This document shows, one piece after another, positions 786 through 4,410 of a DNA stretch of 38,519 nt (position 1 is its first letter; every line of letters starts with the position of its first letter). The notes under the pieces were generated by a model that worked only from the letters and a program-made list of their open reading frames with translations, ran no database searches and was not told where the DNA came from. This DNA is from Methylobacteriaceae bacterium (lineage in GTDB: Bacteria; Pseudomonadota; Alphaproteobacteria; Rhizobiales; Beijerinckiaceae), in the NCBI GenBank assembly GCA_019244955.1, contig JAFASC010000050.1, positions 1 to 38,519 on the forward strand. The letters are read 5' to 3'. The translations under genes were made by a program, and so were the position numbers.

Positions 786-2315
786 ATGCCGTATTTCGAC
801 GAGATGACCTTGCCCGACGGCTCTATCCGAGACGTCTACCAGCGGGTCGCGCAGTGGCTTTCGGACTCACCTGCCGAACTTCTCGAATCCCGACGCTCGC
901 AGGCCGAACTTCTGTTCCGGCGCATAGGGATAACCTTCGCGGTTTACGGCGACAAGGACGCCGCCGAGCGGCTGATCCCGTTCGACATCATCCCGCGCAT
1001 GATCTCGCGGGCCGAGTGGACGAAGCTCGAAGCGGGCCTCATCCAGCGCGTGAAGGCGCTGAACATGTTTCTGGCCGACATTTACGGCGATCGCGAAATC
1101 CTTGCCGCCGGCAAGATTCCTGCCGATCTCGTCTATAGCAACGCCTATTTCAGGCCGGAGATGAGCGGGCGGCGCGTGCCGCATGACATCTATATCCATA
1201 TTGCTGGCATCGACATCGTGCGGGTCGATGGCGACAAGTTCTACGTCCTCGAAGATAATGCCCGAACGCCCTCGGGCGTCTCCTACATGCTGGAGAACAG
1301 GGAGGTCATGATCCGGCTCGCGCCGGATCTCTTCGCCGATCACCGCGTCGCGCCGGTTGAGAACTATCCAGACGCGCTGCTTGCGACGCTGCGCTCGGTC
1401 GCGCCGCGTAGCGCCAACTCGGAGCCGACCATCGCGTTGTTGACGCCCGGTCAGTTCAACTCCGCCTATTACGAGCACTCGTTCCTCGCGGACAAGCTTG
1501 GTGTCGAATTGGTCGAAGGTCGCGACCTCCTGGTCCGCGACGATATCGTGTATATGCGCACGACAGAAGGTCCGCGGCGGGTCGACGTGATCTATCGCCG
1601 GATCGACGACGATTTCCTCGATCCGCTTGCCTTCCGGCCGGATTCCGTGCTCGGCGTGCCGGGCCTCGTGAGCGCTTATCTTGCCGGCAATATCACTCTC
1701 GCCAACGCGGTCGGGACGGGCATCGCGGACGACAAGGCGATCTACACTTATGTACCGGATATCATCGAGTTTTATCTCGGCGAAAAGCCGCTTCTGCAGA
1801 ACGTGCCAACCTGGCGCTGCCGCGAGGCGGATTCCCTCGCATACGTGCAGGAGCATTTGAACGAGCTCGTCGTAAAGGAGGTGAACGGGTCGGGCGGCTA
1901 CGGCATGCTTGTGGGTCCGCATGCAACGTCCGAACAGATTTTGCTCTTCAGGAAGAAGCTGACCGCCGACCCCGAGAATTTCATCGCCCAGCCGACACTG
2001 CCGCTGTCGACCTGCCCAGCCTCCTTTTCGCACGGAGTAGCACCGCGGCACGTCGATCTGCGGCCCTTCATCCTATCCGGTTCCCAGGAAATCCGCGTCG
2101 TGCCCGGCGGCCTCACCCGGGTCGCTCTGAAAGAGGGTTCACTGGTCGTCAACTCGAGCCAGGGCGGCGGCACGAAGGATACCTGGATCGTCGAGGACAA
2201 TCTGATCGAGATGAGCCCGGACCAGCGTCAGAGCCAATGCTTCGGCGCCCGTCAATCGCAATCTCAATCGCTGGGTTTTGGCGCCGGCCAGAGCCAATCG
2301 CAGACTCAGGGCTGA
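786..2315 (+). CDS. circularly permuted type-2 ATP-grasp protein (DUF404/DUF407)
   Basis: A 509-residue protein of the circularly permuted ATP-grasp family, predicted to ligate a carboxylate to an amine at the expense of ATP. The substrate is unknown. Family-typical stretches are visible: the N-terminal RRIGITFAVYG and RVKALNMFLADIYG, then YVLEDNARTPSGVSYMLENR, RVDVIYRRIDDDFLDP, NAVGTGIADDKAIY, VVKEVNGSGGYGMLVGP and a C-terminal RPFILSG plus GGGTKDTW. From about residue 477 the protein carries a Gln/Ser-rich tail with repeated QSQ units, which I do not expect in the family (see findings). It is the first gene of an operon with the alpha-E and transglutaminase-like genes: the gap to the next start is 6 bases. 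The ATG at 786 is supported by similarity of the N-terminus to the family; the upstream SD (GGAAGCGGAG) is weak. Confidence 0.9.
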   Translation: MPYFDEMTLPDGSIRDVYQRVAQWLSDSPAELLESRRSQAELLFRRIGITFAVYGDKDAAERLIPFDIIPRMISRAEWTKLEAGLIQRVKALNMFLADIYGDREILAAGKIPADLVYSNAYFRPEMSGRRVPHDIYIHIAGIDIVRVDGDKFYVLEDNARTPSGVSYMLENREVMIRLAPDLFADHRVAPVENYPDALLATLRSVAPRSANSEPTIALLTPGQFNSAYYEHSFLADKLGVELVEGRDLLVRDDIVYMRTTEGPRRVDVIYRRIDDDFLDPLAFRPDSVLGVPGLVSAYLAGNITLANAVGTGIADDKAIYTYVPDIIEFYLGEKPLLQNVPTWRCREADSLAYVQEHLNELVVKEVNGSGGYGMLVGPHATSEQILLFRKKLTADPENFIAQPTLPLSTCPASFSHGVAPRHVDLRPFILSGSQEIRVVPGGLTRVALKEGSLVVNSSQGGGTKDTWIVEDNLIEMSPDQRQSQCFGARQSQSQSLGFGAGQSQSQTQG

Positions 2316-2321
2316 ACACGC

Positions 2322-3275
2322 GTGCTGGCTCGGACCGCCGACAATCTGTACTGGCTGTCGCGCTACATGGAGCGCGCCGATTTCCTCGCCCGCATCATCG
2401 AGGCGACGCAGCGGCTCGCCTCCGTGCCGCGCGCTTCGGGCAAGGACGAAACGGAATGGGAAAGCGCACTTATCGCCTCCGGCGCGGAAGAGACGTTCCA
2501 TGCGAATTACGAAGTTGCCGACGAGCCGAACGTCGTACGCTTTCTCGCTTTTTCCGAGGATAATCCTTCATCGATCCGCAACTGCATCGAATATGCCCGC
2601 ACCAATGCACGCGCGGTGCGCACGGCGTTAACAGCGGAAATGTGGGACGCAATCAATAGCGCCTGGCTCGATCTGCAAAACTTCAATGGCCAGGGCGAAG
2701 CCATGCATGACCGCGAGGAAACCTCGCGCTTCCTCGAATTCGCGAAGGCCACCTCGCTGGTCTTCGATGGCTCGGCGTATCGCACGATGCTGCGCAACGA
2801 TGCCTACTGGTTCTCGCGCGTCGGCCTCTACATCGAGCGCGCCGACAACACCGCGCGCATCCTTGACGTCAAGTATCACGTGCTGTTGCCGGAGACTGAA
2901 TCGATCGGCGGCTCGCTCGATTATTACCAATGGACGGCGCTGTTGCGATCCGTCTCGGCGCTCACCGCGTATCGTTGGATTTACCGGGAAAGCGTGCAGC
3001 CCTGGCTGGTTGCCGACCTCCTGATCTTGAAGCAAGAGATGCCGCGTTCACTGCTTGCCTGCTACGATGCTCTCGTGCGCTTCCTCGACGAGATCGGACA
3101 GGCTTACGGTCAGCAGGGTCCCGGTCAGCGTCACGCGCGCACCGTCATGCGGCGGCTCGAGCAGGCCTCAATCAAAGACATATTTCAGAGCGGGCTGCAC
3201 GAGTTTTTGACCGACTTCGTCGAGGACAATAGCCGGCTCGGCGACCTTCTCACACAGCAATATCTGCTGAATTGA
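2322..3275 (+). CDS. alpha-E domain-containing protein (DUF403)
   Basis: A 317-residue protein starting at GTG 2322, beginning MLARTADNLYWLSRYMERAD, the hallmark N-terminus of the alpha-E (DUF403) family. The helical body has the repeated pattern YWFSRVGLYIERADNTARILDVKYH near residues 155-190, matching the internal duplication of the family. The protein is soluble, with no signal peptide. Alpha-E proteins are nearly always encoded with circularly permuted ATP-grasp and transglutaminase-like proteins, and are thought to work with the ligase in a peptide or amide modification system of unknown product. Here the three genes are packed with gaps of 6 and 3 bases. No enzymatic activity is established for the family, and none is claimed here. 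Confidence 0.9.
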   Translation: MLARTADNLYWLSRYMERADFLARIIEATQRLASVPRASGKDETEWESALIASGAEETFHANYEVADEPNVVRFLAFSEDNPSSIRNCIEYARTNARAVRTALTAEMWDAINSAWLDLQNFNGQGEAMHDREETSRFLEFAKATSLVFDGSAYRTMLRNDAYWFSRVGLYIERADNTARILDVKYHVLLPETESIGGSLDYYQWTALLRSVSALTAYRWIYRESVQPWLVADLLILKQEMPRSLLACYDALVRFLDEIGQAYGQQGPGQRHARTVMRRLEQASIKDIFQSGLHEFLTDFVEDNSRLGDLLTQQYLLN

Positions 3276-3278
3276 GAA

Positions 3279-4091
3279 ATGCGTCTCGCCATCCGCCACG
3301 AAATTGCACTCACGTGGGACACGCCGCCGCGCTCCGTGATCGAGCATCTGCGTATCGAACCGCGCAACCATGAGGGCCAGCATGTCATCGGCTGGCGCAC
3401 GGATGTCGAGCCGCACGGCCGCCGTCGCATGGCCGAAGATGCGTTCGGCAATGCGTTCGATTCGCTTACCGTCGACGGCCCATTGCGAACGTTAACGGTA
3501 CGCGCCGAGGGCGAAGTCGAGACGTTCGACACGACGGGATTCGTTCGCCACTCGATTGAGCGGTTTCCGCCGGAGCTCTTCCTGCGCGATAGCGCGCTCA
3601 CCGCGCCGGACGCGGCGTTGCGCGATTTCGCCAATGAGCTCGGCGGAAGCGAGGCCGCGCCGCTCGCGCGCGGGCACGCACTCATGGACGCTTTGCACGA
3701 GCGGCTGGATCACGCCTCCTGTCGCGACGACGAATTTGCCGGTGCCGCGAAGACATTCGCCGCCGGACGCGGACATGCACGCGACCTCGCGCATGTGTTC
3801 ATCGCTTGCGCGCGAGCTCTCGAAATCCCGGCGCGCATCGCGGTCGGCCACCTCTCCATTGAAGGCGCGGAAGAACGCGATTGCGTACATGGGTGGGCGG
3901 AGCTCTACGTCGATGGCCTCGGCTGGATCGGCTTCGATCCCGTGACCGGACGCTGTCCGGAGGGCGCCCACATTCGCGTTGCCACGGGGATCGATGCGAT
4001 CGACGCACTCCCCGTGCGCGGCGCGCACCATGGTGGTTCGGGGGAGAAGATCAGCCACCGCATCGCCGTGCATGTGGCCGGCGGCAGGTAG
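3279..4091 (+). CDS. transglutaminase-like protein lacking the catalytic cysteine
   Basis: A 270-residue protein with the bacterial transglutaminase N-terminal beta domain (about residues 1-90) followed by a transglutaminase-like papain-fold domain (about 120-230). The family active site normally reads G-V-C-Q-D-F/L-A-H. Here the aligned stretch is GHARDLAH (165-172), so Ala167 (codon GCA) takes the place of the nucleophilic Cys. The His (VHGW, His204) and Asp (GFDP, Asp220) of the triad are kept, as is the family stretch ALEIPARIAVGH. Changing a Cys codon to GCA needs all or nearly all three bases, so a single sequencing error cannot explain it. The protein is probably a non-catalytic partner, or uses different chemistry. 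It is the third gene of the ATP-grasp/alpha-E operon and starts 3 bases after the alpha-E stop codon. Confidence 0.85.
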   Translation: MRLAIRHEIALTWDTPPRSVIEHLRIEPRNHEGQHVIGWRTDVEPHGRRRMAEDAFGNAFDSLTVDGPLRTLTVRAEGEVETFDTTGFVRHSIERFPPELFLRDSALTAPDAALRDFANELGGSEAAPLARGHALMDALHERLDHASCRDDEFAGAAKTFAAGRGHARDLAHVFIACARALEIPARIAVGHLSIEGAEERDCVHGWAELYVDGLGWIGFDPVTGRCPEGAHIRVATGIDAIDALPVRGAHHGGSGEKISHRIAVHVAGGR

Positions 4092-4173: not shown

Positions 4174-4410
4174 ATGCAGACCTTTTTCGTCGAGATCAAA
4201 TGCGCGCTTGGCAAGACCTACGCCGTTGCGAGCGCACTTGCGGAGGCCGAGATCGCCTCCGAAATCTACTCGATCGCCGGCGACTTCGACATTCTTGCGA
4301 AATTCTACGCCGATAAAGACGTGGATATTGGCCATTTTGTCGGCGAAAACGTGCAAACGATTGCCGGCATTGTCGACACTCGAACGATCATCACCTTCAA
4401 GGCTTTCTAG
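4174..4410 (+). CDS. stand-alone Lrp/AsnC ligand-binding (RAM) domain protein
   Basis: A 78-residue protein that consists only of the C-terminal ligand-binding domain of Lrp/AsnC regulators, with no helix-turn-helix. The beta-alpha-beta-beta-alpha-beta pattern is seen in FFVEIKCALGKTYAVASALAE, the motif YSIAGDFDILAKFYADKD, and the last strand TRTIITFKAF. Such single-domain proteins form ring oligomers that bind amino acids or small metabolites and may modulate full-length Lrp family members. The start is the ATG at 4174; the SD is poor (GAG just upstream). A possible TTGACG box lies in the 82-base gap behind the transglutaminase-like gene. The PCu(A)C gene begins three bases after its stop, so the two are probably co-transcribed, although no functional link is obvious. 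Confidence 0.8.
   Translation: MQTFFVEIKCALGKTYAVASALAEAEIASEIYSIAGDFDILAKFYADKDVDIGHFVGENVQTIAGIVDTRTIITFKAF

Follow-up and report, generated by a model that had tools for sequence, protein, structure and literature searches.

A transglutaminase-like protein with alanine in place of the catalytic cysteine in a ligase/Alpha-E operon of a Methylobacteriaceae bacterium, and the cysteine among its relatives

The Anbu operon, which comprises genes for an ATP-grasp ligase, an Alpha-E protein, a transglutaminase-like protein and Anbu (PMC6376114, PMC5666114), is a long-standing puzzle, in which a ligase, a helical protein and a transglutaminase-like protein are found together with a proteasome relative that has no known substrate. 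In the excerpts of these two papers on which we draw, the operon protein is treated as a transglutaminase, and members that lack the catalytic Cys go unmentioned. According to the same excerpts of one of them, no specific interaction was seen among the Yersinia operon proteins, the transglutaminase bound beads directly, and the hypotheses on the role of the operon had yet to be confirmed (PMC6376114). A search of open-licence PMC full texts for Cys-less transglutaminase-like proteins of the Anbu-type operon found none, and the key paper, Iyer et al. 2009, may mention them.

Pseudo-transglutaminases as such are already known, both in animals and among DNA repair proteins. Excerpts of a further paper describe protein 4.2 (EPB42) as an inactive protein with a transglutaminase core, and XPC/Rad4, FBXO21 and menin as inactive proteins of the papain/transglutaminase fold that have binding or scaffold roles (PMC10318531). 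What appears to be new, judging from the search above, is the occurrence of Cys-less members in the ligase/Alpha-E operon.

The operon and the active site of its transglutaminase-like protein

The DNA that we analysed, here called the window, is a stretch of 38,519 nucleotides from a Methylobacteriaceae bacterium. The genes for an ATP-grasp ligase, which is predicted to join peptides, for an Alpha-E protein and for a transglutaminase-like protein at positions 786-4091 are in the order found in the Anbu operon. They are close-packed on the plus strand, and the transglutaminase-like gene starts 3 bases after the Alpha-E gene. The transglutaminase-like protein lies above the curated Pfam cut-offs for both of its domains, with 61.9 bits for Bact_transglu_N (cut-off 27) and 60.9 bits for Transglut_core (cut-off 23), and none of the three operon proteins matches any NCBIfam family model. 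An Anbu query that matches 35 of 60 relatives finds nothing in the window's genome, which is 91% complete, nor in that of the congener described below.

Table 1. Positions of operon genes and active-site residues in the window
Feature	Position	Strand	Remarks
Circularly permuted ATP-grasp ligase (CP_ATPgrasp_2/CP_ATPgrasp_1)	786..2315	+	509 aa; Pfam 1.8e-166
Alpha-E domain protein	2322..3275	+	317 aa; Pfam 1.9e-93
Cys-less transglutaminase-like protein	3279..4091	+	270 aa; Pfam Bact_transglu_N 9.9e-17, Transglut_core 1.7e-16
Ala167 (GCA)	3777..3779	+	where the catalytic Cys belongs; starts helix 167-180 of the model
His204 (CAT)	3888..3890	+	triad residue, kept in 201/204 distinct relatives
Asp220 (GAT)	3936..3938	+	triad residue, kept in 204/204 distinct relatives
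AsnC_trans_reg (Lrp/AsnC ligand-binding) stand-alone domain	4174..4410	+	78 aa; Pfam 1.4e-10

Several further features of the locus were observed. The gene for the AsnC_trans_reg domain lies 82 bases downstream of the transglutaminase-like gene, and such a domain also follows the operon in the congener (locus L034, 3.2e-11); that it is the last gene of the operon unit is possible but unproven. The Alpha-E protein contains an internal repeat around a conserved ER motif, at 2363-2401 and 2828-2866, whose copies are 77% identical in DNA and translate to YMERADFLARII and YIERADNTARIL. Elsewhere in the window's genome (contig 60, L115), a second ligase is fused with Alpha-E in one frame of 842 residues and shares 33% identity with the window's ligase. 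In a metagenome-derived Beijerinckiaceae record (L057:4539-5987), the ligase frame is broken by two in-frame stops, and the other three frames, for Alpha-E, the Cys-less protein and Anbu, are uninterrupted.

The C-terminal tail of the window's ligase (2202-2312) is rich in Gln and Ser: QSQSQSLGFGAGQSQSQTQG. Similar QSQSQ tails, possibly independent simple repeats, are present in some distant relatives (L022, L163, L020, L104 and L058), and 8 of 193 ligases have a Q/S-rich tail when this is defined as at least 12 residues with at least 40% Q+S. We considered whether such a tail is a transglutaminase substrate that disappears together with the Cys, and found no such pattern: the tail occurs in 6 of 118 Cys-type and 2 of 75 Cys-less operons, and the window's own ligase, from a Cys-less operon, still has it.

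The original prediction held that Ala occupies the catalytic Cys position of the transglutaminase-like protein, that His204 and Asp220 of the triad are retained, and that the codon argues against an error. All three statements are borne out. When the protein is aligned by phmmer with PDB chain 3isr_A, from the one relative that a PDB sequence search returned (E <= 0.001), Ala167 in the block GHARDLAH (3771-3794) falls under the Cys of GVCRDFAH, and His204 and Asp220 fall under the corresponding His and Asp. The codon GCA differs from TGC and TGT at all three positions. The single congeneric genome in the search (G001) encodes a protein (L005, on the same contig as L034) that is 82% identical over 270 residues and reads GHARDIAH, so it has Ala as well (dN 0.109, dS 0.84, dN/dS 0.13). 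Since the congener also has Ala, and since the frame of 270 codons is open, a sequencing error or frameshift is ruled out. The sequence comparison thus confirms that Ala167 replaces the catalytic Cys of a protein with Bact_transglu_N and Transglut_core domains.

An AlphaFold2 model of the protein (mean pLDDT 94.3, pTM 0.92) places Ala167 at the start of helix 167-180, where the nucleophile sits in the transglutaminase fold. Its best structural match in the PDB is again 3isr (Z 25.9, rmsd 2.9 over 248 residues, 23% identity), followed by transglutaminases 2 and 3, factor XIII, LapG and, at Z 10.1, protein 4.2. Compared with an active transglutaminase-like enzyme, the window protein therefore has the His and the Asp, but not the Cys at the helix start, and is presumably inactive; there is good support for the loss of Cys catalysis.

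Distribution of the cysteine among relatives

We collected 218 loci, comprising the window, 29 located relatives from 60 genomes, 80 loci from a named genome collection, 28 located in a 298-genome survey of the window's family in GTDB (Beijerinckiaceae), and 80 further stretches, 79 of them among the survey matches listed and one from the search of the 60 relatives. Removal of 14 duplicates left 204 distinct proteins from ligase/Alpha-E operons; the genera named or grouped with these records include Methylocystis, Methylobacterium, Bosea, Methylosinus, Labrys and Hansschlegelia. The catalytic position is Cys in 126 of the proteins (Cys-type) and another residue in 78 (Cys-less), a ratio that is not a population frequency, because the query is itself Cys-less. 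Within the 60-genome sample, which mostly holds one genome per genus, 10 of 30 located operon proteins lack the Cys. The replacing residues are A (42), P (14), S (7), G (7), V (3), T (2), Y (1), R (1) and H (1), and with nine different replacements the replacing residue itself is not selected. By comparison, the His is kept in 75 and the Asp in all of the 78 Cys-less proteins, and the only three exceptions at His204 among the 204 (L147 Y, L216 R, L217 F) are all Cys-less.

In two other transglutaminase families of the window's genome, searched in the same 60 relatives, Cys is found in 28 of 28 and 22 of 23 members, and the one remaining member ends before the site, so that all 50 readable members have it (10/30 versus 0/50 without Cys, Fisher p = 1.8e-5 with genomes treated as independent). 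A phylum-wide draw of 88 matches, from which the 12 belonging to the window's family were left out, gave Cys in 72 of 76 homologues and in 25 of 25 outside Alphaproteobacteria; the four without it (L248 S, L267 P, L284 S, L290 G) are from Alphaproteobacteria of other families. These counts make Cys the likely ancestral state. A dead paralogue beside a living copy is ruled out for the subfamily, since 37 of 38 relatives' genomes have a single match (E <= 1e-30) and the genome with two has Ala in both.

A Cys could still be supplied in trans, with the Cys-less protein acting as a regulatory subunit of a Cys-bearing transglutaminase-like protein in the same cell. The window's genome does encode three other such proteins with Cys, which show 33, 27 and 37% identity in the parts that match, and one of them shares both Pfam domains. 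However, all three are on other contigs, there is no evidence for pairing, and their families occur both with and without a Cys-type operon protein; we give this explanation almost no weight.

To judge from the trees, many relatives seem to have lost the Cys separately. FastTree trees of all three operon proteins (204 rows, with motif columns removed) and of ligase and Alpha-E only (193 rows) require at least 19 and at least 20 changes of Cys state, respectively, or 14 and 11 when branches with support below 99 are collapsed. Shuffled labels give means of 62 and 59, far more than observed, which marks the trait as heritable, although it has been altered many times. Cys-less proteins are found inside groups of Cys-bearing Methylobacterium relatives (L210 with S, L096/L097 with G) and Methylocystis relatives (L187 with H, L084 with P), and one with Ala (L035) adjoins two Cys-bearing Hansschlegelia. 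Some of the state changes could reflect horizontal transfer of the operon rather than loss. At the other extreme, one genus-level clade, in which L046 (Bosea) was placed by motif similarity, holds 21 distinct proteins that are all Cys-less (A or P). A clade with Ala at this position, which the original prediction had proposed to look for, thus exists, but the pattern is broader, with many separate losses and nine residues.

In some relatives, the entire gene is missing. The ligase is found in 47 of the 60 genomes (E <= 1e-130), the transglutaminase-like protein in 38 (E <= 1e-30) and Anbu in 35. Nine genomes have the ligase and no match to the transglutaminase-like protein. In four of these, ligase and Alpha-E are present with neither an adjoining transglutaminase-like gene nor Anbu (L363, L364, L365, L368), and in two, Anbu directly follows Alpha-E, again with no adjoining transglutaminase-like gene (L366, L367). 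Two more carry divergent or degenerate Cys-less copies (L369 and L370, the latter without the His), and in the last the locus is cut by a contig end (L371). Genomes in which the gene is absent are among the window's nearest by ligase identity (G021 78%, G009 76%, G004 75%). Because six of the 60 genomes keep ligase and Alpha-E without the gene, the ligase does not strictly need the transglutaminase-like protein.

We also considered a link between loss of Cys and loss of Anbu. Leaving out 26 of the 204 loci, which have less than 1.5 kb downstream and no Anbu, Anbu is near by in 93 of 107 Cys-type and 44 of 71 Cys-less relatives, where its absence near by (14/107 versus 27/71) is compatible with a location elsewhere in the genome, as in G017 and G054. 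The raw difference is unsupported on the tree: among 15 independent pairs, on average 3.9 differ in the same way, 2.1 in the other way and 9.0 show no difference (sign test, median p 0.69). With these numbers, we claim no such link.

Conservation after loss of the cysteine

The transglutaminase-like protein is under purifying selection with and without the Cys, and this selection is somewhat weaker without it. In nine Cys-less pairs (the window and its congener, and eight others) dN/dS is 0.08-0.17, and in eight Cys-type pairs it is 0.02-0.16, often below the values of the Cys-less pairs. The Cys-less protein is also looser throughout (mean column entropy 1.81 versus 1.54 bits), and most of all on the side of the nucleophile. 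When columns were ranked by their relaxation in Cys-less proteins, with similar sequences down-weighted, the highest (given by their Cys-type residues) were V166, T150, F145, Q168, A202, T154 and Q200, and further C167, E256, Y240, G203, V260, Y11 and G248. Of 26 columns that are invariant in Cys-type proteins, 13 are still invariant in Cys-less proteins (among them W206, E208, G215, W216, F219, D220 and R186) and 17 stay under 0.5 bit, while nine drift past this limit: C167, Q168, D169, G165, A202, P245, G248, E256 and L24. Q168 and D169 are both kept in 38 of the 78 Cys-less proteins, as a mixture of recent and old losses would predict.

The other operon proteins, on the other hand, are not loosened in Cys-less operons. 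Columns that are invariant in Cys-type operons stay so in 143 of 156 cases in the ligase, 56 of 58 in Anbu and 33 of 44 in Alpha-E, where all 44 stay under 0.5 bit. Mean entropies are even lower in Cys-less than in Cys-type operons (ligase 0.71/0.88, Alpha-E 1.10/1.29, Anbu 0.85/1.13 bits), partly because the Cys-less operons come from a narrower range of organisms. The first Thr, Asp 18 and Lys 33 of Anbu (numbering of the translated protein) are present in 93 of 93 Cys-type and 44 of 44 Cys-less operons.

These patterns bear on whether the gene is simply decaying, that is, whether the Cys step is no longer needed and the protein degenerates without a present function. One can arrange the relatives in a graded series that leads from Cys-type proteins to Cys-less ones with Q168-D169 intact, then to proteins whose motif is gone, then to loss of the His (L147, L216, L217, L370) and finally of the gene, and the lower conservation of the whole Cys-less protein fits such a course. 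With six gene-absent genomes and two degenerate copies, decay is a real alternative, if an unlikely one. The dN/dS values of the nine Cys-less pairs stand against it, as do the open frames and the intact His/Asp pair of the 21-protein clade, and W206, E208 and D220 are invariant in all 78 Cys-less proteins. Because of the low dN/dS, the long-lived Cys-less groups and these invariant residues, we prefer a retained binding role to decay.

The near-strict retention of His204 and Asp220, at a site where the Cys drifted to nine residues, would also fit residual chemistry. The protein might then be an enzyme without cysteine, in which the His-Asp pair activates water or a thiol or amine of the substrate, so that the reaction was changed and did not vanish. 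However, the positions that relaxed along with the Cys (V166, Q168, D169, F145, T150, T154, Q200, A202 and E256) probably include some on the substrate side, and in a remodelled enzyme one would expect these to be conserved again in a different form. Among the columns that gained conservation, none holds a newly invariant polar residue, and the His and Asp may serve the fold. We therefore regard a Cys-free enzyme as distinctly unlikely.

Another Cys could instead have taken over as nucleophile. The window protein has four, Cys148, Cys177, Cys202 and Cys226, of which the original prediction had singled out the first two as residues that might enter the site. Neither is supported in this role: the Cys148 column is Cys in just 2 of the 78 Cys-less proteins, and Cys177 lies ten residues past Ala167 on the same helix, about 15 angstrom away by the usual helix rise. 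Cys202 (3882-3884), two residues before His204, is restricted to the two members of the window's genus; of the 126 Cys-type proteins, 124 have Ala in this column. Cys226 follows Asp220 by six residues and is found more often in Cys-less (61/78) than in Cys-type proteins (69/126), its column otherwise being Ser or Ala. Yet Cys202 accounts for only 2 of the 78, and Cys226 gives way to Ser or Ala in 17 of them and often coexists with an intact Cys167. Moreover, the sequence stretches that surround the site hold no Cys in 13 of the 78, the whole protein holds none in L097 and L210, and the window's helix starts with HAR instead of VCQ. The distribution of Cys148, Cys177 and Cys226 rules them out as a general stand-in, and the scattered positions, together with the two Cys-free relatives, imply that there is no shared replacement. 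Within the window's genus alone, it is possible that Cys202, which shares a strand with His204, serves as nucleophile; overall, a substitute Cys is very unlikely.

Proposed role and comparison with known systems

The explanation that we consider probable, with some reservation, is that the Cys-less protein is a pseudo-transglutaminase of a kind that has arisen repeatedly, and that it has a non-catalytic binding role beside the ligase, useful but dispensable. Its ancestor would have been a Cys-His-Asp transglutaminase-like enzyme of an operon for a CP-ATPgrasp ligase, Alpha-E and the transglutaminase-like protein, with or without Anbu. In the window's lineage, Ala would have taken the place of the nucleophile and the catalytic helix would have drifted at its N-terminal end, whereas the protein kept its fold, its His-Asp pair and the greater part of its conserved framework. 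Acyl transfer through Cys would thereby be gone, and the protein may persist for a non-catalytic task, most likely the binding of the ligase's substrate or product, or of the ligase/Alpha-E pair itself. Across relatives, the course looks stepwise, with loss of the Cys followed by drift of the helix start, sometimes by loss of the His and sometimes by loss of the gene, as ligase and Alpha-E persist. The task would be helpful but dispensable, given that the gene is missing from some relatives. The earlier view of a dead protein kept in a tight operon holds as far as the missing Cys, the 3-base gap and the dN/dS of 0.13 are concerned, and what the protein binds is something that we can only infer; our findings are compatible with the specific suggestion of a protein that holds the ligase's substrate peptide.

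The repeated loss of Cys in a protein that is otherwise mostly kept hints at a second, non-enzymatic job. More broadly, and only tentatively, the transglutaminase-like member may generally be a non-catalytic subunit of the ATP-grasp/Alpha-E pair, for docking or for holding the substrate; it would bind through its His-Asp side, and Cys chemistry would be optional and would have been shed separately in many alphaproteobacterial lineages. If the Cys is indeed repeatedly lost while ligase, Alpha-E and Anbu stay intact, models that make Cys transamidation essential fail for these lineages, and the core reaction narrows to ligase and Alpha-E. Sister species with and without Cys, in the Methylocystis-, Methylobacterium- and Hansschlegelia-like groups, offer natural matched pairs for finding the substrate.

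Among known systems, the Anbu operon is the closest, with the same order of ligase, Alpha-E and transglutaminase-like genes and the same Pfam domains as in the window. It differs in having Anbu, which is not detectable in the window's genome or that of its congener, and in that the window's transglutaminase-like member is without the Cys. The Cytophaga hutchinsonii transglutaminase-like protein 3isr resembles the window protein in fold over the whole length, but has the catalytic Cys. In principle, the window protein is like EPB42, the erythrocyte protein 4.2, in which the Cys is likewise replaced by Ala: both would be transglutaminase cores without a nucleophile, and the core of EPB42 (7uzs) matches that of the window protein over 141 residues with 16% identity. 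This likeness is one of analogy only, since EPB42 is a multidomain membrane-skeleton protein of animals, with no operon and no close kinship, and the low identity and the operon context argue against descent from the animal transglutaminase family. XPC/Rad4, FBXO21 and menin belong to distant families, and their partners are unlike those of the window protein.
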